Positions 1,927 to 64,000 of a stretch of 64,000 nucleotides of DNA are shown piece by piece. The DNA is from Edaphochlamys debaryana (taxonomy: Eukaryota; Chlorophyta; Chlorophyceae; Chlamydomonadales). The translations under genes were made by a program, and so were the position numbers. Location: the NCBI GenBank assembly GCA_016858145.1, contig JAEHOE010000010.1:1596368-1660367 (forward strand). The letters run 5' to 3'. Numbering within the stretch: the first letter of the stretch is position 1; each line of letters starts with the position of its first letter. Below the pieces are notes generated by a model. The model had not been told where the DNA came from, made no database searches, and was given only the letters and a program-made list of their open reading frames with translations.

Positions 1927-2481
1927 ACGGCGCCACGCTGAATGCGCGGCGCCGTTGACCTGGGCTCCAGTCCAGGCGCCGCCGACAAGCACACGCCGTG
2001 ACGGCGGTGGTCAGGCCCCGGCGCCAGCACAGCTCCGTCGGGTTTAGGTAGCTAGCGTCCTGCTGGTATGATGGTACCTAAGGCGCACCCTCCCATGCGC
2101 CATTGCGCCCGCACGTGAGCGGTGCGCCGCCATCCAGCTAGATGCGCTATCGCGTCCAGTGCCCACTGGCATCAGGCGCAATGCCTGCGCTCTCTTGTCC
2201 CCTCCATCGCCGCTGCCGAACTTGGGACTCTGCAAGAGAGTGAACATAGGACTGGTCAATACCATTTATTTACTGTGGCGTGAGCCGGCGGGGCTGCTTG
2301 CAGCGTGCCGACCGTCAATAGACATGACTCTGAACATGACCCCAATGTGACGTGTACGGCTGGCTAGGGTGTAGGTCTCTCTTTTCGTATAGCTCATTGA
2401 TTCTAACCTCCTTTCTTATCAAATGTGGAGGCGACCACACGGTGGCAGACCTCACCTTGGGGTGTGTTGTCAATAGCCGCT

Positions 2482-41784: not shown

Positions 41785-44700
41785 CTAAAGCGTGACGTTG
41801 CCGCGCAGCGCCGCCGCCGCCACCTCCCGCGATACCTCCGTCAGGAAGCTCAAGCGCCAGAGCAGGTCCACGATGGCACATGCGGCCAGCGAGGCCGCCA
41901 CCACGGCGGCCGCCATGGGGAGCCCGCTGCACCAGGTGCCGCCGTCGGCAGCGGCGAACATCAAGGTCAGCAGCGCGGCGTCCAGAGCAAAGAGGGGCCC
42001 ACGCAGCTTCACGTGCAGCTGAAAGGGAGGAAGGTAGGAGGCAGGGCAGGTTCAGAAGCGGAGTGGGTGTGGAGTGGCGGGTAAGCCGTGCATGTCAAGC
42101 AAGCAGAGGATATAACCAGGCCGCCTTCTGCGTAGGGTAGCATGCATACCGATAAGCTAATCAGCTTACACTGTAGCTCGCGGGCTGCAGGGCTGTGCAC
42201 AGCGCTGCCAGGGCGCGGTTTGAGGTTCCCGCCAGCCGTGCGGCGGCAGTCGCAGGTGCTCGGAGCCCGACTTGGCCCCACGAAGGCATGTGGTGCCGGC
42301 AGAAGAGCAGCATGCTGACCGCGTGGCAGGCCCAGATGAATGGCTCGCGCGTCCTGGGGGCATGCACGGACCGGGGAGCAGTGAATCACCGAGAGCGCTT
42401 CAGTCACTGGATTTACCCCCCCGCAGATGACAATGCTTGGTGACAATGCTTCGTATCGGCCAGGACAGTACACCGAGTGCCGGATAGCGCTCAGCGCAGC
42501 CCTCAACCCTACCCGGGCTCGGCAAGGCGCTTGTCGGCCCAGATGAGCACCGCCGGCAGCACCAGCGCGCACATGCACAGCCCCAGCTGCACCACCGCCC
42601 AGCCCGGCGGCAGGGAGCTTGCCGCTCCCAGCACTGCCGCGCCGCTGCGCCAGGCCGCCGCCGCCGCCAGCGTGGCCAGGACGAGCAGGGCGTTGACGGC
42701 AGCGGCGGCAGCGTCGAAGGAACGGGCACGTCGGCTGCGGAAGCGGGTGCAGCGGCGCTCGGTGCCGGCGTCCCTGCACGATGCAGAAGGAGGAGGCAGG
42801 AGCGTTGCGACTGAGGGCCCTTGCCTGAAACATCCCAGTAAAGCACATCAGGGGGGTCTCTTGCGTGCCAGCGCCCGCTAGCGTAAGCATGCTGCAACAT
42901 CCCACGCACCTGAAGCCACGGAAGACTGCACAGCCCGCTACCGCCAGGCGCTGCCTTCCCGTCTGCGACGGGCCGCGCTCCAGCATCCCGCCGACGGCGC
43001 GCTGCTTGCGGCGCCGCTCCTCCGCGGCGGCCTGTCCTCCCTCCACGTGGCCCACGGCCTCCGCCGCAGCCTCCACGGCCGCCGGGTCTGGGACGGCGCT
43101 GTCGCCGACCGCGGGGCCCGCATCGGCGGCCAAGAAAATGCCGTCACTCAGGAGGCAGGCGGCCGAGCCCTGGCGTGCAGGGGGGACCCCGCCGCCGGAG
43201 CCACGGGCCGCGAGGGCCCCCAGCACCTCGTCAAGCCCTGGGGGAGGGACCGCCGATACTGCTTCAGGTGGGCCTTTCGAGGTGGGAGACGAACCGGACC
43301 AAAGCCCCAATCAAGGCTTAGCAACTCGTCACCGCCTAGGCCGGTCTCTTGCCCACCTACCCCGGCTAACTAACCTGGCCCCGCCCCGAGCACCTGAGCT
43401 CACCTGCGCTCCTCATCCCAGCTGCCAGGTACCGCAGGGTCTCGGCCATGCCTCTGTCAGCCAGGAACCCAGCTGCAGCGCCGTCGACGTCCCGCGCAGG
43501 GCCGGCAGCGAGGCGCCTGGCGCCGGAGCCGCTGACGAGGCCGAGCTGCTCCCCCTCTGCCTCGCCAGGCAGCAGAGGGGCCATGTCGGCGAGGAGAGGG
43601 CTGAAGTGTTGCATGTAGGCGAGGGCCCGGCGCGCTTGGGGCCCAGCGCTGGGCCACTTGCCCGCGGCAGCTTGCTCCATGTGGTTGGAAAGGCCGCTCA
43701 GCTCCTCCGCCACCGGTGCTGGCACCACGGCCAGGGGAACGTAGAGCAGGGCGGGGGCCGTGGTGGGACGCATCTGCGGACCATCCTCCCACACCGGCAG
43801 CACGAGCAGAGCAGCGCTGCCCTCCGCCAGGCCGGACACGTCGAGGCTGCGAGGGGCGAGATGGGACGTCCATGGGAGGTCGGCGGGTGCGCGTGGACAT
43901 GGCTCCGCAGCAGCAAGCTTATATCTATATCTGCGAAATCCTGTCGCGGTCCCGGCAAGCCTTGGTGCGGCTTCCGCGACCACGATGCAAGTAGCCGCGG
44001 CTCAGGCGCATAGCTCCAGGCGAGGCGGAGAATAGGGCGTACACAAATAGGCATACGCATTCGACAGAAGCCGGGGCCTAAGCACGCAGCCGTTCGGGCC
44101 GGGCAAGAGGCGACCGAGATCCAGCTGTTGTTGACTTCGAGTCGCCAGCTTGAAGCACAGCGCTAAGCGAGCTAATGCTGAGGTACTATACAAGAGCTAG
44201 CATACAGACCCACCTAGCTCTCTCGATCGGGTAGCGACCCGGCCCACCCATCTCTAGCCTTCTTCGCCACCATCGCTTGAGCCAAAGCCCTGCCCGGTAC
44301 ACACCTTGCGCTGGCGCCCTGTGGCCCGACGGTGATGCGGGCCACCTCGGCGACCACGGCCCCGCGCTGCTGCAGCACCAGCCGCACCTCCACCGGGTCG
44401 TTGGTCTCCCCGCCCTCGTCCAGGCAGAGCGACACGTTGAGCGTGCCGAACGCTCCACCGCCGCCGGTGCCGGCTGTGATGAGGGGAGGTTCCAGGGCTA
44501 GGAGTAGCGGCGCGGCGCGGATGGGGTCCCGCTGTGCATCGATCCCCAGCGCAGCCAGCACTCCGGCAGGCTCTGCTGATCCGGAGGGAGTGCGTGCGGC
44601 CGGCAGCGGCCCCCGCGGGGAGCTGCCTTGGCTGCCGCGACCGCCGCCAGAGGCCACCAGTGGGGATGCGCCCATCTCTAGCCGGGTAGTCACAGCCGGC

Positions 44701-45970
44701 TGCGACCACACGGCGGGCGCCACCTGCATACCGGTAGGCAGGCGGGATGAGTGGAGCTGCCCGCCGGTGTTCAGCGCGCCCCTACTCGGCACCCTGAGAA
44801 CAGGGCCCCACCTGTGCCCACCCCTCTCTGTCGCTCACCTGAACACCATTCTCTTGCTCCGCGGCGGCGTCGTGCAGTGCCTCGCCGCCGCCGGGGTGTG
44901 GCCGCTCGTCTTCGGCAGCCAGCCGTGCCAGTTCCGCCTCCGCCCCAGCCACGGCAGCGGCGATGTCCTCCTGGCCGAGCTCCTCGCCGTCGAACTGTGG
45001 AATGGCGGAGGGGCAGGGCGGACGGTACTTCTCACCTACCTACCAAGCATGCGGCACGCTTCCGGTGCCAACCTGACGACTGGGCGCAGGGGATGGCCGC
45101 TACTTGTCGCGTTCACTCCGCGGCCGCCACAGCAGCCCCCATGAACCATACTCCATCAGCTCATCACGTCAAGACGTGGCCCCTCTGCCTGACCCCTGCG
45201 TCCCCACCTGAAGCCACAGGATCAGCTCCACGCAGCCCCGCACCACAGCCACCTTGGTGCGGAGGCAGGCCTGGCCAGGCTCCGCGTCCCCCGGCGGTGG
45301 GGCGTCCGCAGCGGCGGCAGCGGGCTTGAGCCCCGGGTGGCCCCCGAACGGGCGCCGGGCCGCCGAACTTGGGCAGTCACCGCCGTCGGCAATGCCCATG
45401 CCGCCGCCGCAGGCGTGTTCGATCAAGGCTCGGGGCAGAATGCTGCGGGCGGCGGCGGCGAGGTTGGCGGCGGCGGTCTCGAAGCTGGCATTGTGCTGCA
45501 GTTGAATCTGCAGGGCGGGAGCGGTGGAGGCGCAAGGCGAAGGCGGTAGGGACAGCGCGTCAGGGAGGAAGCAGCTACACAGGCGGGTTGGAGCCAAGCG
45601 AGAACACTAAGGGGCTGAGGGGTTCTGCGGGTTGGTGTTCTGCTGCAGTCAATACCCGCACCCTCCACTATCTCTGCCTGCCCCAGGTTCGTGCCTTGTA
45701 AGCCACGGTGGCGCTGTGGTAGGGTGAGCTGTACACCACGTTTGCGGCACTGAGCCAGGAGGCGCCGGACGACGTGGTGCGCAGGAGCTGTCCGGTGTCA
45801 TCCCTGTTGTCCTGCTCGCTGGTGCTGTGCCTGCCCCCTGCGGCCTCGGGCACCTGGTTGCGCGACTGCGAATGCAGGTAGGTGCGGAGGCTCAAGGCGG
45901 CCGTGTCCGCGCCAGACGGACGAGCCTCACGGTCTGAGGGCTGGGTCTGCAGCGACATGGGGTCAGTTGC
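41040..45970. repeat. Segmental duplication, block A
   Basis: Plus-strand-collinear with 48735-52128. It covers the 3' flank and all but the 5' exons of family copy 3. Shared landmarks include TTGCAACC-AGGGACGTTACA at the left edge, the stop-codon exon, a conserved intron block containing AAGCAAGCAGAGGATATAAC, and GGTTCGTGCCTTGTAAGCC near the right edge. Most blocks look well above 90 percent identical by eye. Confidence 0.8.
41058..41062 (-). terminator. TGTAA polyadenylation signal of family copy 3 (minus strand)
   Basis: TTACA on the plus strand about 725 bases beyond the stop codon at 41785. The same signal with its flanks is preserved at 48754-48758 behind copy 4. Confidence 0.45.
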
Positions 45971-46802
45971 CTGGCTGGGGCCTGCGGTCGGGCGGGTGAA
46001 GTGGGTGGCGGAAAGGACTGAGGCGCCCGTAGCGTGCGTGTGGTGCTTGGCGGTTGCGAAATGGTACGGGCAAAGCCCGGGGAAGGGAGGGGCTGCGCAG
46101 CGCTCCTCGATCCCTGCTCTCCGCTCATCCTCACCTTCGATCGCCCTCTCGTCGTGCTTGGTGCTCGTGGCTCGTGGTCTGCCGTACAGCAGGACGTGGA
46201 GGGCAGCAGCGGCGAGGCCGGCTGCCACGGCTGCTTGCACGCTGCCGCTGGGGGCGGCGAGGTCGGCAGAGACTCCCGGTAGGCTGAGGGCGACGGCGGC
46301 GCAGAGGGCGTGGGGCAGGAGCTGTCTCGCGGTGATGTAGAGGCGGCCGCTGGCGCTCTGGGGTGGGTGAACAGTGGAGCGAAGGGGATTGGCGCGTTAA
46401 CACTGTTCAGGTCTTGAAACCCATTGCTCTTCCCCCCTCGACGAGCGAGCTGATTGTTTCCCCTTCTCCCTCCCTTCAGCTCATCACCTGCCGCGCTCCC
46501 AGCCAGCGGAGGACCGCCAGCAGAGGTGCTCCCGCCAGTAGGGCCCCGAAGACGGTGGCCCAGGTGGGATAGGGCGGGGACAGGTACAGCTGTGGCGCTG
46601 CCCAGCCCGCCGCCGCCGCTGCCACCAGCGCCGCCGCGGCGACCCGCGCTACACACAGCGCAGCACGCGAGCGGGTGCCGGCGACGACCGCCGGTGCTGC
46701 GCCGGCACAAGCGGACCGCACGGCGCCATTTCCTGTGCCAACGATGCTGTAGTGTTGCTGGAAGGGTCGATCGGCTGAGAGGCTCGCGCGGAGAGCGAGG
46801 GC
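41785..46802 (-). CDS. Uncharacterised large multi-pass membrane protein, family copy 3
   Basis: Minus-strand exons, high to low: about 46802-46488, 46358-46135, 45933-45695, 45507-45208, 44994-44839, about 44760-44305, 43846-43404, 43237-42910, 42773-42513, 42353-42170 and 42018-41785. The 5' end is unresolved: the first exon has no in-frame ATG, so a further upstream exon is likely. The N-terminal exons add membrane segments (VARVAAAALVAAAAAGWAAP, TVFGALLAGAPLLAVLRWLG, HALCAAVALSLPGV, AAVAAGLAAAALHVLLYG). The family modules follow: VVYSSPYHSATVAYK, RTKVAVVRGCVELILWLQ, DGEELGQEDIAAAVAGAEAE, VRLVLQQRGAVVAEVARITV, SLDVSGLAEGSAALLVLP and LLYVPLAVVPAPVAEELSGL. The C-terminus has membrane segments ending in LDAALLTLMFAAADG and PMAAAVVAASLAACAIVDLL. 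The YRSP-type exon ends at a GC donor (ACAAG then GCACG at 45694). Function unknown. Confidence 0.7.
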
Positions 46803-48700
46803 CTGCGAGGGCCCGCGACGACCTGTGCTTGGACGGCCGGCGGCGAGCGCGAGCCCGCTCGCTTTCTATGCTATCTGGCAGTGAGTGATACGGACGGACG
46901 CAACTGCGGCTGCGGCGCTTGCCCTGCGGCGGCCTCAACGTTAGTATCCCCAAAGTGCGCTCGGCCGGAGAGTGAGGAAACGGGGCTTGGGCTTGACACT
47001 GAGCTGCGTATATTGTCCTATTTGATGACTGCGCGGGTCTGGAGGCGGCGCGCCGCCGCTTTGCGCTTAGCGCCGATTCGACTCCGCGCCGACTCGGGTG
47101 CCGTACGATTACTCACCCCAAGTCCCCCGCTTGGACGCCCCCCAGAAGACCGGGTGTCTAGCCTTTGCAATGTTATATGGGGGGCTGGAACGAGACGCCC
47201 TGGCCTCGAGGAGGGAAGGATGCAGGTGCACGGATGCTCATACGCGGGCACGTTTGATTGGTCGGGCTTCTGGTGCCCAACTATTGCTGGCTTGTAGGCA
47301 AAGCACGCCACGGTAGAGCTAGGTTCAGAGGGACCTTGATCACCTGAAGGCATGTAGCTGGTGCATTCACCGGCTGTTGCTGATCGGAAGGATCAATTGA
47401 ATATAGCATTGCCCCTGCCTGCCCAGTATTACGTACGACGAGGGTGTCTGTCCTCCTCAGGACAGGGAAAAGGGCTGAGCCCCAAACCCCGCGAGGCCGG
47501 GCAGCACTGGGGCCGCGCAATCAAGCACTAGGCCCCACAGCGCACGGACTGAACCCACGCCGCCATAAGTCAGGGGCCTTCGCAACCCCGCAATGCCGAA
47601 CTTAGCCGGTTGGGTTGGGTGTACAATCATGCACCTCTCCAGAAGATCGAAAGACAAGATGTCCGTCTCCCATCCGCTACTGCCCACACGCCACCCGCTA
47701 CATGTCCCCCTCCGCCGCCTCTGCTCTTTGTTTGGGCCCTCAGCCCGCCGGCGGCCGCTCCAGCGCGGCCGGCCGCGGCTGAAGCCCAGCAGCTTGAGCA
47801 GGAGGAGAATGCGGATCACGTCAGGGGGGGGGGCAGGAAGTGTAAGAAAGTACACCACGCTTTTACTTTGGAGAGCTTGACAAGAGGAGCCCAAATCTGC
47901 TTTCAGAATGAACATCGAGGTTCTAGGAAAAAAGTTATGAGCCCTCAAAGTTGGGGGGGGGGAAGGAGGGGGGGAAGGGGGTCCCGAACTTTTGTACAGC
48001 TCCCGTCCGAACTTTTGTCACAGCGGTCTGACGCAGCCCAAGGGCCCTTTCCTTGCGTAAACGCGTGGTTTCATGGAGAGGCTGAACCGTGGGTGTGCCT
48101 GAGCACCACAGACCATAGGAATGGTGGTCGAAGGGGGGCTGCGGGTGCCACATGTCGGCATGTCCGCATGTGGGACACGTCACGACCGGCACTGCCACCG
48201 CTGCTAGACGTCCGGGTGCACTATTATGACAGTAGCTCGTCATAGAGGAGGCCTAGGGCTCGAGTAGCGCGGATGCAAGGTACCGGAGAGTGGTCCATGG
48301 ACGCGGGGATGGTTAATGGACAGGACCCAAGCCTCATCGACGCTTCCGGTTCATGCGCAAGGCAGTAGCGCACACGAAGCGCAGCCGATTGGCACAAAAG
48401 TCGAGGAAAATGGGTTACATTATGGCCATGTACGGCAGTGTGTGCAGTGTACGGCAAGGGGTGGGGGTGGGGGTGGGTCGGGGGGGTCGGAACTTTTGTG
48501 GGGTGGTGTATGGAACTAATGTTTTTACCCCCCCCCCCCTGATCACGTTGGCAGCGGAGACGTCGCGGTTCTGAGGGTGGAGTAGGAAGGCGCATTGGCC
48601 GCCAAGACGTTCGCACTCAAAGGGTCAAACGCTCAAGGTGAAGCTAGCAGTGGACGCTGCTCAGCACGTTCATTGGTAGCCAAGGCAGGACGCACGCACG
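46803..48700. other. Intergenic, low-complexity region
   Basis: No supported gene. It lies upstream of copy 3 and downstream of copy 4. The motif CGAACTTTTGT occurs twice at about 47984-48020, and GGAACTTTTGT once near 48488. Several long G or C runs are present (for example 47825-47835 and 48529-48539). Confidence 0.45.
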
Positions 48701-48734
48701 GAAGGTGCAGAGGAGTACGACGTCTGCCATCTGA

Positions 48735-51700
48735 GGCTTGCAACCAAGGGACGTTACAACCTCCTCCCCAGGATACCACGTTACCATCCTTCAGCTTCGT
48801 CCACCTACTCATTCCCCCCTGTACGGCACCTGCATGCTTCCCCGTACGGCACCTGCTGCGCTGGCAACTTGACCCACGCGATGCAGCCACGGCCGCTCGT
48901 CCCTGCGTCCGTTGGGTGAGAACGGCCAGCGCCGCCTCTGCCGCAGGGCCCGTCTGCGGTACGGCACCTGCTACGCTGGACAGCACGCATGGCAACATCA
49001 ACGCCCGAGCCACGCATTATACCACATGATGTTGTTCAAACATCGGGTAGAGCATCCTCTTCTTACCTCAAGCTACGCCAACATAGGCCTCAGCCGTGTT
49101 TACGGACAGTACCGATACAACAAAGCCACCAGCTGAACCCCGGGCGAGGCACCCCAGAAGACCAGGACCCTAACGCGTGACGTTGCCGGGCAGCGCCGCC
49201 GCCGCCACCTCCCGCGATACCTCCGTCAGGAAGCGCAAGCGCCAGAGCAGGTCCACAAGGGCACATGCGGCCAGGGAGGCCGCCACCACGGCGGCCGCCA
49301 TGGGGAGCCCGCTGCACCAGGTGCCGCCGTCGGCAGCGGCGAACAGGATGGTCAGCAGAGCGGCGTCCAGGGCGAAGAGGGGCCCACGCAGCTTCACGTG
49401 CAGCTGCAAGGGAGGAAGGTAAGAGGCACGGAAGGTCGTCAAGTAGCGGAGTGGGTGTGGAGTGGCGGGTAAGCCGTGCATGTCAAGCAAGCAGAGGATA
49501 TAACCAGGCCGCCTTCTGCGTAGGGTAGCATACCGGTACCTATTGGCTATTCAGCTTACACTGTAGCTCGCGGGCTGCAGGGCAGTGCATAAGGCCGCTA
49601 GGGCGCGGCTGGACGGTCCCGCCAGCGGCGCGGCGGCGAGCTGCGGTGCTCCGAGCGCCCCTGGGCCCCAAGAAGGCATGTGGTGCCAGCAGAAGAGCAG
49701 CATGCTGACCGCGTGGCAGGCCCAGATGAATGGCTCGCGCGTCCTGGGGGCATGCACGGACCGGGGAGCAGTGAATCACCGAGAGCGCTTCAGTCACTGG
49801 ATGATCCTCCCAGCAGATGACTCGATGACAACGTTTCGTATCGGCCAGGACAGACACCGAGTGCGGGATAGCGCTCAGCGCAGCCCTCAACCCTACCCGG
49901 GCTCGGCAAGGCGCTTGTCGGCCCGGATGAGCACCGCCGGCAGCACCAGCGCGCACACGCACAGCCCCAGCTGCACCACCGCCCAGATCGGCGGCAGGGG
50001 GCCTGCCGCTCCCAGTACCGCCGCGCCGCTGCGCCAGGCCGCCGCCGCCGCCAGCGTGGCCAGGACGAGCAGGGCGTTGACGGCAGCGGCGGCAGCGTCG
50101 AAGGAACGGGCACGTCGGCTGCGGAAGCGGGTGCAGCGGCGCTCGGTGCCGGCGTCCCTGCACGATGCAGAAGGAGGGGTACAGGTAAGAAGGAGCGTTG
50201 CAACGGGGGGCCCTCAACTACAAGGGGGCCCACGGGACCCATAGGGTGCATAGGGTGCACATGTCTCACTCCGTCAAGCCACACACCTGACGCCCACGAA
50301 GACAGCTGCCGCCGCCAGCGCCAGGCGCTCCCGAGGCATGCAGGCCAGGCCAGCCGCTTCCACTCTGGTGGCGCGCTGCTTGCGGCGCCGCTCCTCAGCG
50401 GCGGCCTGTCCTCCCTCCACGTGCCCCACCGCCTCCGCCGCATGGCCACCTCGGCGACCACGGCCCCGCGCTGCTGCAGCACCAGCCGCACCTCCACCGG
50501 GTCGTTGGTCTCGCCCTCATCCAGGCAGAGCGACACGTTGAGCGTGCCGAACGCTCCACCGCCGCCGGTGCCGGCTGTGATGAGTGGAGGGTCCAGGGCT
50601 AGGAGTAGCGGCGCGGCGCGGATGGGGTCCCGCTGTGCATCGATCCCCAGCGCTGCCACTCCTGCCAGCACTCCGGCAGGCTCTGCTGATCCGGAGGGAG
50701 TGCACGCGGCCGGCAGCCCCCGCGAGGAGCTGCCTTGGCTGCTGCGGCCGCCGCCAGAGGCCACCAGTGGGGATGCGCCCATCTCTAGCCGGGAAGTCAC
50801 AGCCGGCAGCGACAACACGGCGGGCGCCACCTGCATACCGGTAGGCAGGCGGGATGAGTGGAGCTGCCCGCCGGTGTTCAGCGGGCCCCTACCGTACTCG
50901 GCACCCTGAGCCCTGCCCACCTGTGCCCACTAGTCTCTTTCGCTCACCTGAACACCATTTTTTTCCTCCGCGGCGGCGCCTTGCAGCGCCTCGCCGCCGC
51001 CGGGGTGTGGCCGCTCGTCTTCGGCAGCCAGCCGTGCCAGTTCCGCCTCCGCCCCAGCCACGGCAGCTGTGATGTCGTCCTGGCCGAGCTCCTCGCCGTC
51101 GAACTGTGGAGTGGCGGAGGGGCAGGGCGCACGGCATTTCTCACTTGCCCAAGCATACCGGACACTTCCCGCTCACCCGCTGCCATCGTGACTAGGCGCA
51201 GGTAAGGCTCGCTACTTGTCACGTTCACTCTGCGGCCGCCACAACAACCCCCTACGTTCAACCACGGCCGCCACAGCAGCCCCCCATGAGCCATACACCT
51301 TGAGCTCATCACGTCAAGACGTGGCCCCTCTGCCCGACCCCTGCGCCCCCACCTGAAGCCACAGGATCAGCTCCACGCAGCCCCGCACCATAGCCACCTT
51401 GGTGCGGAGGCAGGCCTGGCCAGGCTCCGCGTCCCCCGGCGGTGGGGCGTCCGCAGCGGCGGCAGCGGGCTTGAGCCCCGGGTGGCCCCGCCACGGGCGC
51501 CGGGCCGCCGAACTTGGGCCAACAGCCCCGTCACCGCCGCCGCCACTGGGCCTGCCATCGCCGCTGCCGCCACCGCTGGCGTGTTCGATCAAGGCTCGGA
51601 ATGCTGCGGGCGGCGGCGGCGAGGTTGGCGGCGGCGGTCTCGAAGCTGGCATTGTGCTGCAGTTGAATCTGCAGGGCGGGAGCGGTGGAGGCGCAAGGCG

Positions 51701-52128
51701 AAGGCGGTAGGGACAGCGCGTCAGGGAGGAAGCAGCTACGCAGGCGGGTTGGAGCCAAGCAAGAAGGCAAGGAAGCTCGTGGGACCCGCTGGGCGGGTTG
51801 GTGTCCTGCTACAGTCACTGCACCCTCCATTATCTCTGCCTGCTCCAGGTTCGTGCCTTGTAAGCCACGGTGGCGCTGTGGTAGGGTGAGCTGTACACCA
51901 CGTTTGCGGCACTGAGCCAGGAGGCGCCGGACGACGTGGTGCGCAGGAGCTGTCCGGTGCCATCTCTTTTGCCCTGCTCGCTGGTGCTGTGCCTGCCGCC
52001 TGCGGCCTCGGGGACCTGGTTGCGCGGCTGCGGCTGCAGGTAGGTGCGGAGGCTCGAGGCGGGCGTGTCGGCGCCAGACGGACGAGCCTCACGGTCTGAG
52101 GGCTGCGGCTGTATCGGCATGGGGTCAG
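48735..52128. repeat. Segmental duplication, block B
   Basis: Second copy of 41040-45970, same orientation. It is about 1.5 kb shorter, mainly through one deletion at 50440 matching 43067-44339 of block A. Homology stops abruptly after GGGGTCAGT at about 52128, where unrelated lower-GC sequence begins. Confidence 0.8.
49170..52120 (-). pseudogene. Family copy 4, truncated and internally deleted
   Basis: Minus-strand relative of copy 3 that keeps the middle and C-terminal exons (for example SSPYHSATVAYK, LQHNASFETAAANLAAAARS, VRLVLQQRGAVVAEV, EPFIWACHAVSMLLFCWHHM, PLFALDAALLTILFAAADGG). It lacks the two 5' membrane exons: homology to copy 3 ends at about 52128. At 50440 the exon encoding VRLVLQQRGAVVAEV is fused directly to the later exon that encodes AEAVGHVEGGQAA in copy 3, removing the whole DVSGLAEG domain. 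The fused part is read in a shifted frame (MRRRRWGTWRED) and reaches the next donor with one leftover base where copy 3 has two, so the downstream membrane exons would be out of frame. The simplest view is a pseudogene; a re-spliced short protein remains possible. Confidence 0.75.
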
Positions 52129-53220
52129 TGACCGTAGCTCTCCGGAACGTAGTGTAGGAAAAGCGGAGGAGATTACCCCCCGGCACCCACCGTCATCCGT
52201 CCGCGCCCAGGCGAAAGTTGCTTTTGCTATTTTTCCCGAGCAGCCCAATGTATTGTGCATGAATAGCCGTTGTAAAATCGAGGCTTGACCGTGGGGTCTG
52301 CGCGTTTACTCGGCGGTCGGCATTCAATGTACGCGAGTTGCGAAGGGTGGGCAGGAACGAAAGTTATATGGGCGAAAAATACGATTAAGAGCGAAGAAGG
52401 CGTCCTCGCGGCGGGGGACGCTTTATACTGGCCGCCGCCGGGATTTGGCAGTCGCTTCTTTCGCCGCGCGATGCACATACATGCGTTGGAGGGGGCAGTG
52501 GGAGGCGTGCTCGGCTGAGGCAAGTCGGTGGGGGCCGCGTTTGGAATGCATGGGGCCGTTTCGACGACCACCGGCTCCAGCTTTCGTCGCCCACGACGGA
52601 AGTTGTGTCCCCTGTCCCCTCTTACCCAGTCCCACAGTCATGCGTTGGACAATGAGTCCAACATGGGCGACATGAGTCCTTACAGGGCGTCCTCGCGGTT
52701 GCGGACGTTTGTTAGTGTCCACCGACGCGATTTGGGAGTGTCCTTCAATCACCGCGCGAAACACATACATGGGTGCGGGGGGTTTGTGGGAGTCGTGATT
52801 GATTGAGGCACGTCGGTGGTGGCCGCATTTGGAGTGCACGGGGTCGTTTTTACCTGCTGCGTCGCCAGGTTGCGTCGCTCACTTGCACGACGGTCCGCCG
52901 CGCTAAAATTGGGTTTCCTTCTCCTCAAACCCAGTCCCACCCCACGGCTCTGCTGAGCATGTATGCTGTCTTATGCGCGGTCTTCGTTCGGGATGGTCGG
53001 GATGTGGCGCCGACTGTCGTACTTTGGCGCGCTGTATTGTAGCTGCCAGTTTCGATGCTGCGCTGTTTATAATGCTGGCAACCATATACACAGTCGACCA
53101 ATGTCGACAATCTGCGTCGCATAGACAAGTTCAGGAGCGGGCCGCACCCGAAGTCGGCGTGGTCGCAGCCCCGCGACGTGAGCGCTGTGTCGGAGGCGGC
53201 GCCGCAACCCGATATAACAT
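52129..53220. repeat. Lower-GC repeat region with two diverged tandem units
   Basis: Two diverged direct repeats of about 240-255 bases, offset by 287 bases, start at 52399 and 52686. Both begin GGCGTCCTCGCGG, share CACATACATG and TGAGGCA-GTCGGTGG words, and end with CCCAGTCCCAC. No gene was found. Composition matches the mobile-element region to the right rather than the host genes to the left. Confidence 0.6.
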
Positions 53221-53604: not shown

Positions 53605-54261
53605 CCACGACCCATCGCGGTTGATGGGTTTGCTGCCGGGTATCCTGTGGAAGTGGCGTTGAACGGAATGTGGACCTCATCGGGGGTGGGGCCAAGGAAG
53701 TGGCCGGTGGGGGGGCGTTGATTCTGCCCCGCCCCCTTAACCCCGAAGTGGGGCACGCACGGGTTTGCCCGTTGCGTAGCTAGTATTAAGATTATAGACC
53801 TCATCGCTGGCAAGAGCTCATGTACTTGAGACACCGGAGGGGCAAGGCATCCCCTACCAAGTGATTGGGGTTGGGACAGCCCTGAACAGGGTCCCTGACA
53901 GGATCTGTTGGCCTGTCAGCCCTCTGCGGCGCAGGTGCTGCAGCTTTTGGCCTGACAGGCGCCGACCGTTCGGGTGCAGGCTGTGACAGGCCGGCTGGAG
54001 CTGTTCAGAGCTGTTCAGAGCTGTCGACTGTGTGCTTCTGCTTCAACACTGAACTCTGACAGCATGTGACCCCTTGCATGACGGAGCCACACGACAGGGA
54101 CTGGCGTCCTGCCTACACCTCAATCGCCACCCACGGTAGGCGCAGCAACACGCGCCCCGCAGGCGCAACAGCACGCGCCCCACAGGCGCAACCCCACACG
54201 CCCCGCAGGCGCAGAAACACACGCGCCCTGCAGGCGCAGAAACATGCACTACGTCCTTGCA

Positions 54262-54643
54262 GTCCAAGTGCAGCACCGACACCGACCGGGTGAAGGTCTT
54301 CGTGCTGCACACGTTCGGGCGCAAGACGGGCACCACCGTCATCCTGCCCAGCGGCACCTTCAAGGTCGCAGCGCTCAAGAAGGGTAAGCCGTGGGAGGTG
54401 CCCGTGGAGGGGCTCCTGCCCTCCTGGAACGGCAGCGACGCGGAGGCGTGGGCCAAGTCCAACTCGTGCACGCCCAGCCAGTGGCAGGTCGGCATCGACC
54501 TGTGCAATGGGACCCGCACGAGGGTGCTGGGCCAGGCGGGGGCGGCGGCACCGGCGGCGGGGGCGGCGGCACCGGCGGCGGGGGCGGCGGCACCGGCGGC
54601 GGGGGCGGCGGCACCGGCGGCGGGGGCGGAGATGACCGCGTGA
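54262..54643 (+). CDS. Exon-like coding fragment carried by the inverted-repeat element
   Basis: An open frame preceded by a good acceptor (CCTTGCAG at about 54254-54261) encodes about 127 residues. It has a folded-looking part with spaced cysteines (KCSTDTDRVKVFVLHTFG, TVILPSGTFKVAALKKGK, LLPSWNGSDAEAWAKSNSC, WQVGIDLCNGTRTRVLG) followed by four copies of AAAPAAG. No family recognised. Its location inside a transposon suggests a captured host exon; upstream exons were not found. The sequence just before it (54130-54250) repeats a GCGCCCCGCAGGCGCAAC-like unit. Confidence 0.4.
54534..54630. repeat. 21-bp tandem repeat (about four copies)
   Basis: GGGGGCGGCGGCACCGGCGGC-type unit repeated in frame, encoding AAAPAAG on the plus strand. 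It forms the 3' end of the exon-like fragment in the inverted-repeat element. Confidence 0.7.
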
Positions 54644-55048
54644 GGCAGAGGGACAGAGGACAGGGGGCACCAGGCGGGGGGACCAGGCGGGGGCACCAGG
54701 CGGGAACCGGGGGCACCAGGGGGACCAGGCGGGAACCGGGGGCACCAGGCGGGAACCAGGCGTCCGCCTGGTGGATCGGGGGGTTAGGTGGCGCAGGCGG
54801 TGAGGAAGCAGGCTGTGTTGCCTTGAGCGCTTTGTTGGGCCTAGATGGTGAAAGGGAGCAGGTAGCAGGTGTGTTCGATTGGATGGCAGGCTAGGTTGGG
54901 GCTAGGTAGCGTAAGCAATCGGATGGCAGGCTACTCGGGCTGCTTGTGTGCTAGGAAGACGGTGCAGTTGTTTTGCAGGCAGTCGTTTTTGCAGGCAGTG
55001 AGCGGCGCTAGCTTCTGGCGGTTATCCCTGTAACGCGCTGTTGATTAC

Positions 55049-55604
55049 TGTGACACCCTGTTCGGGGAGCGGAGCAGTTCAGCAGTGACAGCCTGTTCGG
55101 GTGTGGAGCGTTGCAGCAGACAGTGACAGCCTGTTCGGGTGCGGAGCGGTGCCGTAGACGGTGACAGCCTGTTCGGGTGTGGAGCGGTGCAGCAGACGGT
55201 GACAGCCTGTTCAGGTGCGGAGCGGTGCAGCAGACGGTGACAGCCTGTTTGGGTGCAGAGCGGTGCAGCAGACGGTGACAGCCTGTTCAGGTGCGGAGCG
55301 GTGCAGCAGACGGTGACAGCCTGTTCGGGTGTGGAGCGGTGCCGTAGACGGTGACAGCCTGTTCGGGTGCGGAGCGGTGCAGCAGACGGTGACAGCCTGT
55401 TCAGGTGCGGAGCGGTGCAGCAGACGGTGACAGCCTGTTTGGGTGCAGAGCGGTGCAGCAGACGGTGACAGCCTGTTTGGGTGCAGAGCGGTGCAGCAGA
55501 CGGTGACAGCCTGTTCAGGTGCGGAGCGGTGCAGCAGACGGTGACAGCCTGTTCAGGTGCGGAGCAGTGCAGCAGACGGTGACAGGCTGTGACAGGCTGT
55601 TCAG
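55049..55604. repeat. 38-bp minisatellite (about 14 copies)
   Basis: The unit GTGACAGCCTGTTCGGGTGC followed by GGAGCGGTGCAGCAGACG (38 bases) repeats head to tail with a few variants (CCGTAGACG, TTTGGGTGCAG, TTCAGGTGCGG). The higher-order order of variants is itself partly repeated. Because 38 is not a multiple of three, the minus-strand frame that runs through it cycles every 38 residues and is an artefact. Confidence 0.9.
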
Positions 55605-55862
55605 TAGTTCGCGCTGCCTGCTGTGACCGGCTTTGACAGCCTGTCAGTAGAACAGCACCCTGCAGGGCCACAGGCATCCACAGGCACAGACAGGCTGCAA
55701 CCGGCTGTCAACGGCAAACGTGCTGCAGGTGCTGACGAAATGGCAGGGGATAAGTACCTTTTAGGCCCCTGTGACAGCCTGCTGCAGGTGCAGCAGGGCC
55801 CTGAACAGGCTCTGACAGGCCCTGTTGAAGGCTGTCCCAACCCCGATCACTTGGTAGGGATC

Positions 55863-56497: not shown

Positions 56498-59400
56498 ATG
56501 GCCGGTGCTCAGGTCCCTCAGTCGTTTGCCATCGAGCTTGAGACACCAAAGGATGGATCATGCAGTTTACACGCGGTTCTCGCCACAGCTGCGACCGAAG
56601 AGGAGCGTTTCGCGGCTGTGGCATTCGTCCGTGAATTGCTGATGGTGCTCGCGTCACGTCGCGATGTGTTCTTTTCGTGGCTCTGGAGCTTCTGCGTGGA
56701 CCCGGACTCTGCTCACATCACGGGGACCGCAATCCAGGCTGTGGCGGCTGGCCCGCGGACGTCGGCGGTTCCCTACCTGCGCTCGGCGTCGTCATACAGC
56801 GCGTGGATTGGTGATCCCTGTTCGTGGCTCACGTACCTAGAACTACAACTCGTGTCAGCGCTGCTGGGTGTGTCCATCCTCACCTGGCAGCGCGTTGGCC
56901 AGGCTGCGGAGTACACTCGCGTGGCAGCTGTGTCTTCGGGGAAGGCCGGCCCCGTGGTATCTGTGCTGTACGAGAACTCTGGCAAGAACAACCACGGCCA
57001 TTACAAGGGCCTCGTCGACACTCCGGAGCACTTTGGCGGGCTGGTCAGAGTTGGTGCAGCCGACCTCAAAGACCTGGCAGTGCCTGCTGTGCTTGGGCCG
57101 GCTGTCGACGCCGTCTTGGACGACTACCGCGGTGCGTACCAACGTAGATTTGCTACGACTAAGTGTGTGGGAACGGAGTTTGTGCTTGACTGGTATATGA
57201 ACTTTAGGGAAGTAATGCCTGTGCAGGTGATCCGCGGATGACACTGCTGCGGTCGGCCATGTCGTCAATGCCGAGGGTGGTGCAGAGGTCAAGCGTCGCG
57301 GTCCAGGAGACAGTTGTTTCAGCGGCAACGGCTTTTGCAGGCCCGGTCACCCCACAGCCTGTGGGAGCTGGGCGTGTGGTGGACCGTCGTGCGGCCACCC
57401 TTCGCCGCGTGAACCAAGGTGGTGGTAACGGATGCAGCAGTCACCCCATGACAACGGTTCACGAGATGCCTCCACCTCATTCGGCATGCCCGCGTGCGGA
57501 TGCGGGCGCGTGTGGAGCTGCTGAGGATGGGTGGCAGGAACCGCGTCACCGTCCATCGTCGCGTCTGGCGGTTTCGTCCAAGGTCGTAAGGGTCCACCCG
57601 ACGACGACTGTCAACCGCTACGAGGGGCTCCAGGAGCTGGACGAAATCTGCGACAACGGGGCCAACATAGCGGGCGCTTCGGACAACGACGACCACGTCA
57701 CCTCAGGCGACGACCACGACACCTCAGGCGACGATGACGACACCTCGGACGACGACGACGACACCTCGACCTCGGACGACGACGATGACGAAGTCACCTC
57801 GGACGTCTTGGACCAGTCGTCCGACGACGACCGACCGACCGACCAGGCATCGGAGACGACGTCAGCACACACCTCGGCAGAGGAGTCGTCGGCGGAGACC
57901 TCTCCGGCGGAGTCGTCGTCGGAGTACGGTGTGAGCACCGACGGTACCAGCATTGAGGGAAGCAGCGATTCGTCTGCAGGCGATCTCTCGGACGAGGAGA
58001 TGTGCTCTAGTGAGTCCATTGAGGTGGGCCCAATCCATGACGTGGAGCCGAAGCCTTCGTCCGTGGCAGCTCTTTTGGAGGAGGCTTGCGCAGAGGAAGG
58101 TGGAAGCCATGGCCGTGGCAGTGGTCGTGGTCGCGGTCGAGGCCGCGGTCGAGGCCGCGGTCGAGGTCGGGGTCGAAGCAGTGGTGGTGGTGGCCGGTTC
58201 GCTCGCGCCACCGCACGAGGACGTGGTCGGCCGCCCGGGAAGTTCAAGTCTGTATTAACTGATCAAGCAGAGATGAGGAAGGAGCAACTACGACGTTCAG
58301 GTGCGGAATTGGGCGCCCCATTTGCACCCTGTTGACAATTCTCACACTTATCGATTGTCCACTCCTTTGTAGAGCGGTCTGTACCTGCAATGAAGAAAAC
58401 ATCTGCGCCCGCCAAGACGCGGAAACCAGCGACGTGGAAACCTCCGGCCTCATTGCCCTGCCAAGTTTGTTCCAGTCCAGAGGAAGCTGGCCTGATGTTA
58501 CTTTGCGATCGTTGTAGCACTGGATGGCACACGTACTGCCTTTCGCCGCCGCTGTCGGAAATCCCCTCGGGAGAGTGGCTGTGCCCTAACTGTGCATCGT
58601 TAGGCGTGTCCCTGGAGCTGTTACCACGCACAGAAGGTGCTGGTCGAACGTTCCCCGCTCGTAATCTCAGACAAAAGAAAGCTATCGTGGGTGAGTGCGA
58701 GGCCGTACTTGAATTGTTCGTTCTTGTCCGTACATTTATTTAACAGTTCGCCGTGTGCTTCAGGGTTGATGGACCAGATACGCAAATTGGTGGGCGATAC
58801 ATTTGTCGTGCAAGCTTCAGCTGTCATACAGCAACTGTTGCCAAAGCATACGGTCGACGAATGCCAGACGTTGGCCGCAACGTGGGCGGAGGCGTGCCCA
58901 GATGGCTCTACAGCTCTTTCGGTCACAACTCCTCGACGACTCTCGGCGCTTCTATTGTGGTGTCGTGAACGTTGTTCGGCCCCTCAGACTGGAGCGTTTG
59001 CGATCGGATTACCCGCGAAGTTCTCACGCGCATTGGGCAGAAGCCAAGGTGTGTGAACGGTGTGAGTATGTTGCCTGTAACGGGGTTCAAAGGTTGACGC
59101 TACCGCAATTTGCTTCAGGTGAAGGCGACAACGACAAGTCAGCACCACCGGCCCCAATAGCGGTATTTACTGAGGGCGCGTTCTGGGCAGTGGACAAGAT
59201 CATAGCTCACCGAGCTGAGCGTTTGAAGGGCCGTCGTCGAATGTTCTATTTGGTGGCATGGTCGGGTTTCAGCGAGCCGTCATGGCAGCCTGCTGCTAAT
59301 ATTACATCCGACTTAAAGGAGGCTTATTGGTCGACTGGAGGTGTAGAAGGTATGTCTACGTGTCCGCCGATTTGGCAGACGGTTTGCAAGTGTTTCTGTC

Positions 59401-62400
59401 GCCTCACAGTCCCTGTTGATGGCCACACCGCCTTTACTTGAGAAGATCGTGCTTCCTGTCGCGCTGTCCAGAATCGATGGCGAGCCCGGCGCGAGCTAAC
59501 AACGGGGTGTTTGTGGCGGCTTCGGCCGTTGAGACGGCACCAGTTGACATTGGCGTGGTAAGTGACTTGCGTTAGACGTTGCTACGTACTGTGTAACTGT
59601 CACGAACCCCCGTGTAGGCGCTAGAGCTTTGCGTGTCTGTTGGAGGAACGTTCAAAGCCCTACTGGTAAGGTGGCGATGTTTGCCGGATCAGGTTGCTAT
59701 CCATCCTATATTGGCGTCAACGTGCCACCCGCCTGCCTTGTAGGATCAGCCTGTCGCCAAACGACGACGAGATGCTGTCGCTTCATCAGCACGCAAGGAG
59801 CGAGCGGAAGCCCGTGAGAAGCGAGCTGCTGTGGAGGCCCGTGTTCGCGAATATTCGAGGGCGTACCGGCAGCGTGAGAAGATGATTCAGGAGGTCAGTG
59901 AACTGTCGACGCACGACTATTTCTGGGCCGTTTGAAGATGTCTCACCACATGTTTCAAATTCAGGTCGAGTGCACTGGATCAGAAGCCGACGACGAGGGC
60001 ACCGCTCCGAGTAAAGAGCCGGACTTTTCCCACTTCGCCGTCCTTGGTGCCTGCATGTGGAAACATCGCGATGCATCCAGCAGGGTCGACGCCCTGGCAG
60101 GAGCGTCGTCCATGAAGTCGTTCCCTCCAGATTTCCCTTCACGTCAGCAGGACCTACCTGCGGGAGCTCATGTCCCGGCCGCGTCGCTGGCGGATCAAAT
60201 CGCTCTAGCCGAACGAATGGAACTGTTTGTCGAGGGGGTCATGCCAAGCAGAGTATGCGCAGTGTGCAGCGAGATGGTGTCTACCAAAGAGAGCAAGCTG
60301 CTTTCATGGCAATCTATGGCAGCGGAGTTTGAATATCTACGTGCCGATGTCCAGCCTGACGCACTTGTGTGTCGGCCGGCTCACGTGGTGCACTGGCGAC
60401 CTCCCTTACATCCCGACCCGCCCTCACGTGTTCGGCCGATGGGATACCAACGTCACTGGCTGCCTCCCCAACAGCGGAAGGGGCGCTCACAGCCGCCTCA
60501 AGGTCAACCTCCGGCAGACCAAGTCCTGCCCGACAATACAACCATTCCATGTGTCGGGGGAGGAGCCTATGGACCCGCCTCCACGAGCGCTATTGATGGA
60601 GAGATAGGATGCGACCGGCCGGTCGCTTATCGGGATATCGATGCCGACGTCTTCATGGGCCATGGTGAGTCAGTTTGTCGGGCAATTCCACTTGTGACCA
60701 TTCACGACGTCGTTCTGGCTGTACAGGTGATATCCCGTCGGTTGCTGCGCAATACATGCCCGGCCTAGGTGGGCAACAACAAACGACTTGTACGGGTGGA
60801 GGTAGGTTGTGAGCAGTTAGACGCGGACGTGCTATCACGCTCAGTCCACAAGGCATAACTCTTTGTGACGTTTGCATGCCGCAGGCGATGCGGACAGCGA
60901 CCCAGAGACCTACCCGGTACGGGTCGATCGCAGGCCTACGGTTGATGTGATCGACGGCGTCTTGACGATGGTCGCTGCCTACTGCATGCATGTGGAAACG
61001 TCGGGTGCCAACGCAACGGCGGTTCTTGCTGACGATGGGTCCTTGGAGGTGGTTGTTTGCGACGTATGCGCTGCCGCTCTGCAGCACGTCCCAAAAGAGG
61101 GGTCCCAGCGTCGGAAACCAGACGGTGAGTGGTGGACGTAACGCGCTGATGCCCAACCTGCTGTTAATTGGAATCCCCTCTTGTGTCTTCAGGAACTCCA
61201 ATCCCCACTGTCCGGATCCCACAAGGCTCATTGGCGCGCATGGATGGTGGAGACGTTCCAGACGACCTCCCAAAACTGAGTTTTTATGGAGCAGCAGCTG
61301 TTCGGGCGTGGAAAGGTGCAGCAGTTTCTTCTGCCTGCAGATCGCGATGATGATCGTGGGTATCCGACGGACGCGGCCCCTTTGAAGATCACGAGTCACG
61401 GAATTGCAGTCGCCAACCCTCCGTTTCACCAATTGGTGGAGTCGATTCCGCGACACCCCGAGTCCTTGGCTTCCAACATTTCGCTGCTGTGTATCCCCGC
61501 TGTACGGTCGGCGGCTGAAGTGTTCAAGTACCTGAATGGGGCGAAAGCGTACTCCGTCGAACCACGAGCCGTGTTGGCATGGACGATGTTCCTCCAGAAA
61601 TGTGACAACGAGGTGATGTGGGACGAGGACGCAATTTCATTTTGGAAGAACTGCCATCCGAGCGGGACAGTACCTCGAGCGTTGCTGCAAGATGCAATCG
61701 CAACGTTGGACGTTGCTATCAGTGACCTACTTAGGAATGTATTACTACGCTATCGATCTGGCCCAACGCCTGTCCGTGATGGTGCCGATGTGGTCGCTGA
61801 GGAACCGTTACCATTCTTTTCCCTGAGTGACGGGCACGTGCCTCCTCAATTTCGGACCAACTCCGACAACGACGACCGAGGGTTGACCGAGTTGGAGATC
61901 ATACTTGCGGAACAGTCTCCCGAACCCTCTCCCTCGGACCACAACACTGTCCGCAATGCTGCCACGGTACAACAGGAGCTCAACAACTCTCGGACGTTAG
62001 TATGGGCCTCTGGAGGTCCTGGGGCGAAGGTGAGCTGTTTAGGGAACTTGCTTCTTCCTTCCGGGCTATCTAACAGCTGGTGGCATTTGCAGGTTCTGGA
62101 CTTTCGGGACGACGGTCACCTTGGTCACTGTTTCCCCACGTCGTTCCCTTATGGCATCCATCGCCCAGCGGGAATGTCTCTGGCACAATTCTTTCGTCAT
62201 TTGATTCGGCGGGTCCCTCGTCGTCAGCATAACGGCAATCCGCTCCTCGTAGCCAGGATGATTGATATTCTTCGTCTTGAAGGGTCGCGTCTACATTCAT
62301 CTATTACTGCCAAATCAAGCGTCGCCGACGTCGAAGCTGTGGGGCATATTCTGCGCGACGTCGTGCGATCTATGGCTGAAGTCTTGGCATTACCCTACCA

Positions 62401-63965
62401 TGACACACGACGCCGTGAACTGCTGAACGCCAACTCGCCTCTAGTGCGAAGTTTGGTCCGAACTATGACGCGGACATCACAACGCCTGGACCATGCCTAC
62501 TACCAGGGCGCTCAGGGGTCTATGGCAGCCGTCAACGCAGTGGTTGGATTACCATCAGTCATATTCAACGTCAATCCCGCCGACCTTCACAGCGCCGCTG
62601 TCATGACTGCGGCTGGCGAGGTTGTGGAGACTGGGATTGATGGTGGTCCCACTTCGTCTGAAAAGATCGTGAAGAAATGGCGTCGCGTGCGCGAGAACCC
62701 CCACTCGTGCATGAGACTACTATTGGCAGTTCGAGACGCGATGTTGAAAGAATTATTTGGATTTGAGCGTGGATCGAAGAAGCAGATGGATCCAGACAGC
62801 TGCTTCTGTGGTGTGGTATTCCACGTCTTCGTGAAAGTGGAACAAAGTGGACGAATGGCCCTACATCTCCATGGTGCAGCGCACGTCACGGCCCTATCTC
62901 CAGAACGTCTACGGGCGTTGTTCGAGGGTCCCAACTGCAGTGCGTTATCTTTGGCCCATTCGTTGTGTTGCATGTGGCTACCAGATCCCTATTACGACCT
63001 TCAGGCCAGCCCAGAGATGCGTTACGTGGACCCTGCGGATGGTCTCGACCTGCACCTTCTGGGCGAAGAAGGTGGTCCGGTAGAGCCCTTGCGTCCTCCA
63101 CCTGTGGACAAAGAGCGCCCTCCGGCCTCATTCAAGTTCCGCAAGGTTGCAACATCGCCGCCCCGTGTTTCGGTACTGGCCGGGAAGCGGGTAATCCACA
63201 AGAGGTGTGCTGCACATCTAGCAGCCGTGGTGTATTCATCGTGTCGTCACGGCAAGCACGTCAAGGGGCTATGTGATCGGCATGGCTGCACAATGGTCGA
63301 TGGAGACTGCAGCATGGTATATCCTCGAGTGTTACGACGTTCTATGCGGTGGTTCGGGCGGCACGGAGCCTTCGCGTTACCTCGGTATGGTCCGAACCTG
63401 GTTTCTCAGAACCCAGCCACCTCCATGGCCTTCGGGGCTAATAATCATTTCAACCTCCCTGTCGAGGTGGACCGCGACTTGACGGCAGAGGTGGATGCCG
63501 AGTTGATGAAGCCTGAAGGGGAACAGGACCCGGATATTGTGTTTCCAGTCTTGCAGTGCCCAGAGTTTCGAGCGATGCAGCGGTCGTACTACGCATGCAA
63601 GTATATTGGGAAATCGGTGCGATCGAGTCAAGCAGTTCAGCTTACCAAGGCGGTGGGCATCACTAACGCCTTCCTGACGTCGCCAGCTGGACCGCAAGGC
63701 GGAACAAGCCAGCTGTTCTGGGTTGGGCGTCGTGTCTCGTCGGGCAGTGGGCAACCTCATGGCTGCTGTCAACCGGATCACAGCAAGCTGCACGGTTGGT
63801 CTTACGATGGCGTCTTTGCTTCTCAACGGCAATGCGACGTTTTATTCCACGTTCGACAATTGCGAGATCGCCAGTGAAGCATACTCGGCTTCCTTCAGAG
63901 CTGCTGCTAACATCTCGGACGCGAGTGAGGGGCTGGCAGACACCCCTCTTGGTTATTGGGGATAA
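56498..63965 (+). CDS. Helitron-like replicase: OTU protease, PHD finger, chromodomain and HUH Rep (3' end open)
   Basis: Fifteen exons join with matching phase: 56498-57226, 57307-58300, 58373-58690, 58764-59048, 59119-59340, 59472-59557, 59618-59665, 59744-59893, 59965-60664, 60728-60769, 60885-61124, 61193-61315, 61410-62029, 62093-63616 and 63687-about 63965, over 2,100 aa. Residues 1-243 are an OTU-like cysteine protease domain (DGSCSLHAV nucleophile motif; NNHGHYKGL with the catalytic His). An acidic stretch (DDDDDTSTSDDDDDE) and a GRGRGRGR tract follow. The PHD finger shows C4HC3 spacing (CQVC, CDRCSTGWHTYC, WLCPNC); the chromodomain shows FYLVAWSGF and WQPAANI. A charged helix and a CAVC zinc-like motif lead into the Rep: GHCFPTSFPYGIHRPAGMSL, GLPSVIFNVNPADL, GRMALHLHGAAHV (HUH), YYACKYIGKS, then LLNGNATFYST. 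The helicase is expected beyond 64000. Whether the frame stops at 63963 or splices on is unknown. Confidence 0.8.
58094..58200 (+). repeat. Arg-Gly coding repeat in the Helitron-like gene
   Basis: A run of GGTCGTGGTCGCGGTCGAGG-like 6-bp units encodes alternating Gly-Arg ([12 protein letters not shown]), an RGG/GAR-type basic tract of the kind that binds nucleic acid. It lies directly after the acidic region and before the PHD finger. Confidence 0.8.
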
Positions 63966-64000
63966 CGCAGATGACAGCCCGCCGCCTGTGCAAGTTGTTA

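Follow-up and report, generated by a model that had tools for sequence, protein, structure and literature searches.

Histone-reader domains upstream of the Rep domain in a predicted Helitron2-like transposon protein of Edaphochlamys debaryana

Does a rolling-circle transposon of the green alga Edaphochlamys debaryana encode histone-reader domains in line with the replication protein (Rep) that would move it? The question is raised by the window, the whole stretch of 64,000 nucleotides analysed here, which forms the final 64 kb of contig JAEHOE010000010.1 (C10; C-numbers denote contigs of this genome, searched as 141.9 Mb in 502 contigs). The initial annotation had described a Helitron-like Rep preceded by an OTU protease, a PHD finger and a chromodomain. 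We conclude that the observation holds in substance and is partly confirmed: we are confident of the architecture and of its membership in one element, a Helitron2-like transposon whose copies we call family A.

The predicted gene lies on the plus strand and has 11 exons up to position 63690. Exon 1 (56498..57131) has the motifs of an OTU-like cysteine protease (a DGSC loop, SWLT-E-LLGV-I, and GHY), and exon 2 (57227..58300) encodes an acidic, RG-rich linker with an AT-hook-like GRGRPPGK; the intron that follows (58301-58372) was chosen by hand. The PHD finger, with all eight C4HC3 ligands, occupies exon 3 (58373..58690; Pfam match 58459-58593) and the chromodomain exon 5 (59119..59349; Pfam match 59184-59330), separated by exon 4 (58764..59048), which has no known domain. 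The exon model continues with exon 6 (59472..59557), which contains an in-frame ATG at 59477, exon 7 (59744..59893), exon 8 (59965..60664), a domain without a name that is 45% identical to a diverged second family (family B), and exon 9 (60885..61124), 50% identical to the same family. By Pfam, exon 10 (61193..62029) encodes DUF6570 and exon 11 (62093..63690) the Helitron Rep (Helitron_like_N, with HLH at 62864 and YACKYIGK at 63590). The window copy has a one-base frameshift near 61283 and another frameshift near 63680. Ten joined exon pieces (56498-61281) give 1269 amino acids without a stop, and 61286-63690 is open in a single frame, one base off from the preceding part. Of the phase-consistent 15-exon model first proposed, the frame-consistent chain stands and the exon count does not, given these 11 exons and the two sites of frameshift.

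An exon-prediction script, using codon usage from open reading frame (ORF) pieces (two of ten had stops, being out of frame) and a Chlamydomonas splice consensus, reproduced the majority of these splice sites in three copies (C15, C199 and the window). It deviated in the RG-rich stretch, put extra introns into broken parts of copies and bypassed the window frameshift near 61283 with a longer intron. Predicted intron 1 carries an insertion of 162-168 bp in two of 14 other copies, with the donor kept and the acceptor side aligning. We suggest that the OTU-like, PHD, chromodomain and Rep modules are probably joined in a single polypeptide, as the gene model predicts.

The order of the modules recurs across the genome. 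DNA of the middle part (58360-61600) is found at 19 loci, the window included, at 94-100% identity (29 search rows, of which four are family-B pieces at 73%). Exon 1 has 27 genome matches, some being pieces of one copy, and the element's helicase side and 3' portion likewise recur. At the 17 PHD-exon loci of family A the modules share one strand, with the chromodomain exon at all 17, the OTU exon at 16 (not C104) and the Rep at 16 (not C81, an internally deleted copy that lacks the Rep side). Because the order recurs at 17 loci and, without the PHD, in family B, we regard it as beyond chance, and an origin of the PHD/chromodomain part and the Rep part from separate repeats is rejected by the same counts. 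The inventory was also taken from the Rep side, by a Pfam scan of the genome and a DNA comparison in which the best 40 of 135 candidates were scored: of the 19 Rep loci listed for family A, 16 also have PHD and chromodomain, and at C229, C93 and C144, the three that do not, the contig begins or breaks off within the gene. These truncated loci are the only family-A copies we found whose Rep lacks the reader exons, the case that the initial annotation had named as its refutation; its claim of one rolling-circle element with OTU-like, PHD and chromodomain modules upstream of the Rep is supported. The ratio pN/pS among copies is 0.36 for the PHD exon (n=12), 0.72 for exon 1 (n=15) and 0.85 for exon 2 (n=16), pooled over non-independent pairs and leaving out copies with less than 85% coverage (four for the PHD exon, one for exon 1). 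In one copy a stop interrupts exon 2.

How well are the individual domains identified? The PHD finger is solid, combining the C4HC3 ligands with a profile match above cut-off in the window ORFs (PF00628, E 1e-13). Its nearest solved structures are the PHDs of CHD4, PHF12, KMT2D and lid, a group with some members that read unmodified H3K4 and some that read H3K9me3. Support for the chromodomain is modest: in the window ORFs PF00385 matches with E 1.1e-5, at 25.7 bits against a cut-off of 25.1, and the nearest solved chromodomains are those of cpSRP43 (1.8e-5), Swi6 (1e-3) and HP1 (6e-3). It has W, W and F at the three places that form the aromatic cage in HP1. In the window ORFs DUF6570 and Helitron_like_N match weakly (0.0034 and 9.4e-4), and in a copy that is 99% identical but free of the local frameshift they reach 1.1e-10 and 1.2e-6 (the latter 29.3 bits against a cut-off of 28.9). 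The Rep shows HLH and YACKYIGK, which we take to be the HUH and two-tyrosine motifs, and other copies have GAAGYGKS, IFIDEIG and YVLLTRYAS, presumably the Walker A, Walker B and motif VI of the helicase. A HUH Rep with two tyrosines and an SF1B helicase, the latter identified by motif, are thus found on one element, as expected of a Helitron. The OTU assignment is motif-based, since Pfam OTU misses the window copy: the Cys loop is conserved in all nine aligned sequences and GHY in all six that reach that far, and Pfam OTU matches two of nine aligned relatives (best E 0.1). Of the modules first named, then, the PHD, chromodomain and Helitron_like_N matches are upheld by Pfam; the OTU profile (PF02338) has no match in the window, and this domain is assigned there by its conserved motifs.

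To which class does the element belong? Its window part runs from 52128 on the plus strand to 64000, where the contig end cuts it off, and other copies supply the helicase, two further ORFs and the 3' end. By coordinates the full element is about 21.9 kb: 11,873 bp in the window, less an insertion of 2,002 and an overlap of 1,807, plus 13,834 bp in C144. An 11-bp 5' asymmetric terminal inverted repeat, GACCGTAGCTC (52130..52140, plus strand), has its perfect reverse complement, GAGCTACGGTC, near the 3' end in other copies, 20 bp before the terminus. The termini read TGACC... (5') and ...CCTTGT (3'). With up to three mismatches the 5' end occurs 49 times in the genome (34 perfect) and the 3' end 42 times (35 perfect), and neither reversed-pattern control occurs at all. 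The 5' end, TGACCGTAGCTC, is preceded by differing flanks, except that C199 and C303 have one flank in common. In all 15 correctly read 5' ends (15 of 16 rows were kept, the C199 row having been read at the wrong spot) a T stands before GACC and a purine before that T; the base after the constant 3' TTGT is T in six of 11 3' ends. The window's left-flank sequence is present on C144 once without the element, and elsewhere there adjoining an element's 3' end. Comparison of the junctions ...GGGGTCAG/T + element + /TACCTCGC with the empty ...GGGGTCAGTTACCTCGC (C144) shows no target duplication, and the empty site TCAGT/TACC set against both junctions shows that insertion was precise, at a T-rich site. 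At the expected place there is a possible 3' hairpin (four-pair stem, 3-nt loop, -2.8 kcal/mol). Terminal inverted repeats, a 5' T and a site without duplication are Helitron2 features as that group is defined (PMC3627910), and on this basis we call the element Helitron2-like. The available text of that definition gives asymmetric repeats of 8-15 bp, set 0-2 bp in from the 5' end and about 20-30 bp in from the 3' end (PMC3627910). The ends lack the 5' TC, the 3' CTRR and the insertion between A and T that would indicate Helitron1. A Helentron was also considered and rejected, as Pfam found no C-terminal apurinic endonuclease in the ORFs scanned from the Rep to the 3' part (some short ORFs lay outside the scan).

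The stretch at 53855..55856 is an unrelated insertion of 2.0 kb, with terminal inverted repeats of about 21 bp (TACCAAGTGAT...) and 38-bp tandem repeats; it was rejected as element sequence, being missing from all 14 other copies that span this position, in 13 cases with the exact junction. Two other candidate boundaries were discarded: a 5' end at 53002, where there is only a small indel, and an element end at L037:8959, where the copy concerned (C15) is truncated. The host flank, annotated at 44340..52127 within a longer run of such repeats (41783-52129), consists of tandem units of about 6 kb that hold the element, with further units and the empty site on C144. Within the element, the end of C10 (window 62194-64000) and that of C144 (324550-326356) overlap with 98.4% identity, and their two flanks occupy one and the same position in the array unit; the two contig ends are perhaps halves of one insertion. 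A short non-autonomous derivative is likely at C89:176556-178325, where a 5' terminus is followed or preceded by a 3' one at a distance of about 1.77 kb. Two intronless ORFs of 620 and 580 amino acids, 32% identical and leucine-rich by eye, are encoded in the element's 3' portion (L056:3409-5268 and 1040-2779, minus strand). An F-box/LRR identity for them, suggested by eye, was not adopted: Pfam gave no relevant match, the one hit being a weak DUF3852 (0.085), and ribonuclease inhibitor is the best match in the Protein Data Bank (PDB; E 0.17). On C150, five diverged 5' termini lie within 38 kb (59070-97387), and chromodomain matches occur on the same contig at 36993 and 46833.

Are the reader modules older than family A? 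Family B (C38, C15, C309 and C3) has OTU exons 43-44% identical to that of family A and a Rep match in Pfam, and all four loci have the family-A 5' terminus upstream, one with a mismatch. C38, the only family-B locus read through, is 43% identical to family A in the OTU, 45% in the middle region and 58-74% in segments of the Rep. Between its OTU and middle region lies a chromodomain-like stretch that scores 66, against a mean of 34 and a maximum of 54 for the shuffled query (500 shuffles). The genome-wide Pfam scan gave 32 Helitron_like_N matches, many from other families, among which the DNA upstream of the Rep was read for C38 and C139. The C139 Helitron has OTU (6.4e-4), DUF6570 (2.5e-7) and Helitron_like_N matches in a single open frame of 1189 amino acids (L064/L001); as it carries both in one frame, an OTU-to-Rep fusion does exist in this genome. 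Plausibly, an OTU-Rep protein gained first the chromodomain and then, in family A, the PHD, or else the PHD was lost in family B. Beyond this genome no relatives were found in a set of prokaryotic contigs, nor any for exon 1 or the Rep in a protein set that apparently holds little eukaryotic sequence.

The likely relatives of the two readers point to retrotransposons. Outside family A, the best chromodomain matches (C3, C128, C150 and C56) are 42-43% identical, with E values of 1.0e-13 to 1.9e-13. The one on C3 (43%, E 1e-13) was read and belongs to a gypsy pol with the order reverse transcriptase, RNase H, integrase, chromodomain; C254 (42%, E 9e-6) has integrase and chromodomain within the stretch read. 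For the PHD exon there are at least 132 match rows outside family A at 40-56% among the best 150 of 266 candidates scored, many, not all, with long open frames, and the match on C62 (53%; L060:1-5115), when read, proved to be a gypsy-type pol with a PHD after the integrase. In the comparison set (five of 20 fetched PHD stretches without the full pattern were left out), PHDs with flanking PPxxLPC and GVS/T motifs, of which C62 has a variant, score 184-237 against the query and others 160-185. The trees disagree: FastTree joins the query to the C62 Gypsy PHD (0.63), IQ-TREE does not, and nearby supports are 30-43. From these similarities it is likely that both reader modules share an origin with the integrase tails of long terminal repeat (LTR) retrotransposons.

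Overall, the explanation that we somewhat favour is that of a Helitron2-like family, autonomous in type and about 21.9 kb long, whose Rep-helicase protein acquired a chromodomain, joined in family A by a PHD, behind an N-terminal OTU-like protease and ahead of the Rep. Rep and helicase would move the element by rolling-circle replication, and the two readers could anchor the Rep complex on nucleosomes that bear certain histone H3 marks, so biasing where new copies land, as is held for the chromodomains of chromoviral integrases. The OTU-like domain might deubiquitinate either the Rep or chromatin proteins. Reader-guided insertion is possible, though we think it somewhat less likely than not. 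The fuller proposal, that a rolling-circle transposase took integrase targeting tails (chromodomain, then PHD), picks sites by combined histone marks and has its own deubiquitinase in the same polypeptide, is more doubtful. The 5' ends are clustered, with 21 pairs within 50 kb, or 11 without C150, against a random mean of 0.8 and a maximum of 5 (2000 draws ignoring contig ends), which may agree with targeting.

Several observations weigh against this explanation. The clustering may come equally from islands of purging or selection, segmental duplication or arrays (C199 and C303 have a common flank). In the long spliced product the chromodomain reaches 21.4 bits, under the cut-off; the helicase is weak in Pfam (AAA_19, 0.0079 at best). 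Pfam OTU does not match the window exon 1 even at E limits of 1, 5 and 10, a profile of the nine OTU sequences finds no match in the PDB, and alignment of the OTU-like domain to the C139 OTU with hhalign is not significant. Two alignment-free structure models were too poor to use (mean pLDDT 38.8 and 44.1). Frame-breaking indels occur in exon 1 in four of 14 other copies, along with its pN/pS of 0.72, and in the PHD exon in two of 11. There is no sign of a PHD in C38 (score 39, equal to the shuffled mean), so the PHD may be dispensable, and the family-B chromodomain has no Pfam match, with no B locus among 74 chromodomain matches genome-wide. The 3' hairpin is weak against shuffled sequences (equalled by 14 of 200 at 18 nt and by 77 of 200 at 48 nt) and a 5' one involving the inverted repeat no better than they are (149 of 200 for 50 nt and 187 of 200 for 58 nt fold at least as well). 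Lastly, the ATG at 59477 opens MASPARANN... in frame, so that a separate Rep gene could begin there.

That start codon is an argument for two genes in one element, one for an accessory protein with OTU, PHD and chromodomain that would end near 59441, the other for Rep and helicase from the ATG, with the readers acting in trans or on other targets; moreover, the Helentron OTU is described, in the available text, as encoded in additional ORFs (PMC4067079). We think this arrangement unlikely, given that donor 59350 and acceptor 59471 keep the frame and were both chosen by the script in two of three copies, and that C139 has OTU and Rep in one open frame; in the third copy, C15, the script used the same acceptor and skipped the chromodomain exon. 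The readers might, alternatively, protect rather than target, recruiting or blocking chromatin factors at the element's own DNA and, with the OTU-like domain, helping it to escape silencing, with no influence on the insertion site. Other Helitrons do carry chromatin-related cargo, namely SET in Helentrons (PMC4067079) and TET/JBP dioxygenases in fungal Helitrons (PMC12730594), as far as the text available describes. The modules here, however, are in line with the Rep, and their genome matches include integrase tails, a place that the accessible parts of two papers associate with targeting (PMC12477314, PMC12477816); protection does not seem to us a probable role. It is very unlikely that the domains are functionless passengers, nested LTR-retrotransposon sequence captured by chance, even though the matches include retrotransposon ORFs, Helitrons are known to capture sequence (PMC12477314, in the text available) and family B shows no PHD: the eight PHD ligands are intact, the pN/pS of that exon is low, the order is kept at 17 loci, and a chromodomain-like stretch is present in the diverged family B as well.

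How does the element compare with known systems? Helitron2 elements, reported in all species studied according to the text available (PMC8226300), include Helitron-1_CRe and its relatives in Chlamydomonas reinhardtii (Bao and Jurka 2013, PMC3627910), which as described there share the asymmetric inverted repeats, the 5' T, the lack of target duplication and the Rep-helicase. Those elements insert after TTTT, whereas ours inserts after RT and has no clear 5' hairpin; the PHD, chromodomain, OTU and two extra ORFs are not described in the available text, from which the term OTU is absent (PMC3627910). Animal Helentrons, in the text available (PMC4067079, PMC9741609), likewise combine a rolling-circle Rep-helicase with an OTU-like protease and have subterminal inverted repeats; our element differs in having no C-terminal endonuclease in the ORFs scanned, and PMC4067079 does not use the terms PHD and chromodomain in its main text. 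According to the accessible portion of PMC9741609, biochemical activity has been demonstrated for VTD-class deubiquitinases borne by Helitrons, and transposon OTUs had not been assayed. Chromoviruses (Ty3/gypsy) have a chromodomain in common with family A, whose best match outside the family lies after an integrase in this genome (C3), but they use reverse transcriptase and a DDE integrase with the chromodomain at the C-terminus, and here it is N-terminal of the Rep. In the C62 Gypsy element (L060), whose PHD, like similar ones, has PPxxLPC-like and GVS/T flanking motifs in common with that of family A, and in Ginger1-9_HM (PMC2836005, in the portion available), a PHD is joined to a transposition enzyme; that enzyme is a DDE integrase or transposase, not a HUH Rep. 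Since chromatin-related cargo is known from Helitrons in the same partial sources (SET, PMC4067079; TET/JBP, PMC12730594), reader domains are not a wholly new kind of acquisition. Among the literature matches listed, most of them seen in part, with few subscription papers and Repbase outside the search, there was no report of a PHD or chromodomain in a Helitron Rep.

To our knowledge, the choice of site by Helitrons beyond a dinucleotide is an open question. If our reading is true, targeting modules would be common to retrotransposons and a mechanistically unrelated class, for which there is a parallel in the Helentrons, whose endonuclease is said in the available text to be a gain from a retrotransposon (PMC5148889). 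A HUH transposase with in-line histone readers would also make the chromatin targeting of rolling-circle elements directly testable.

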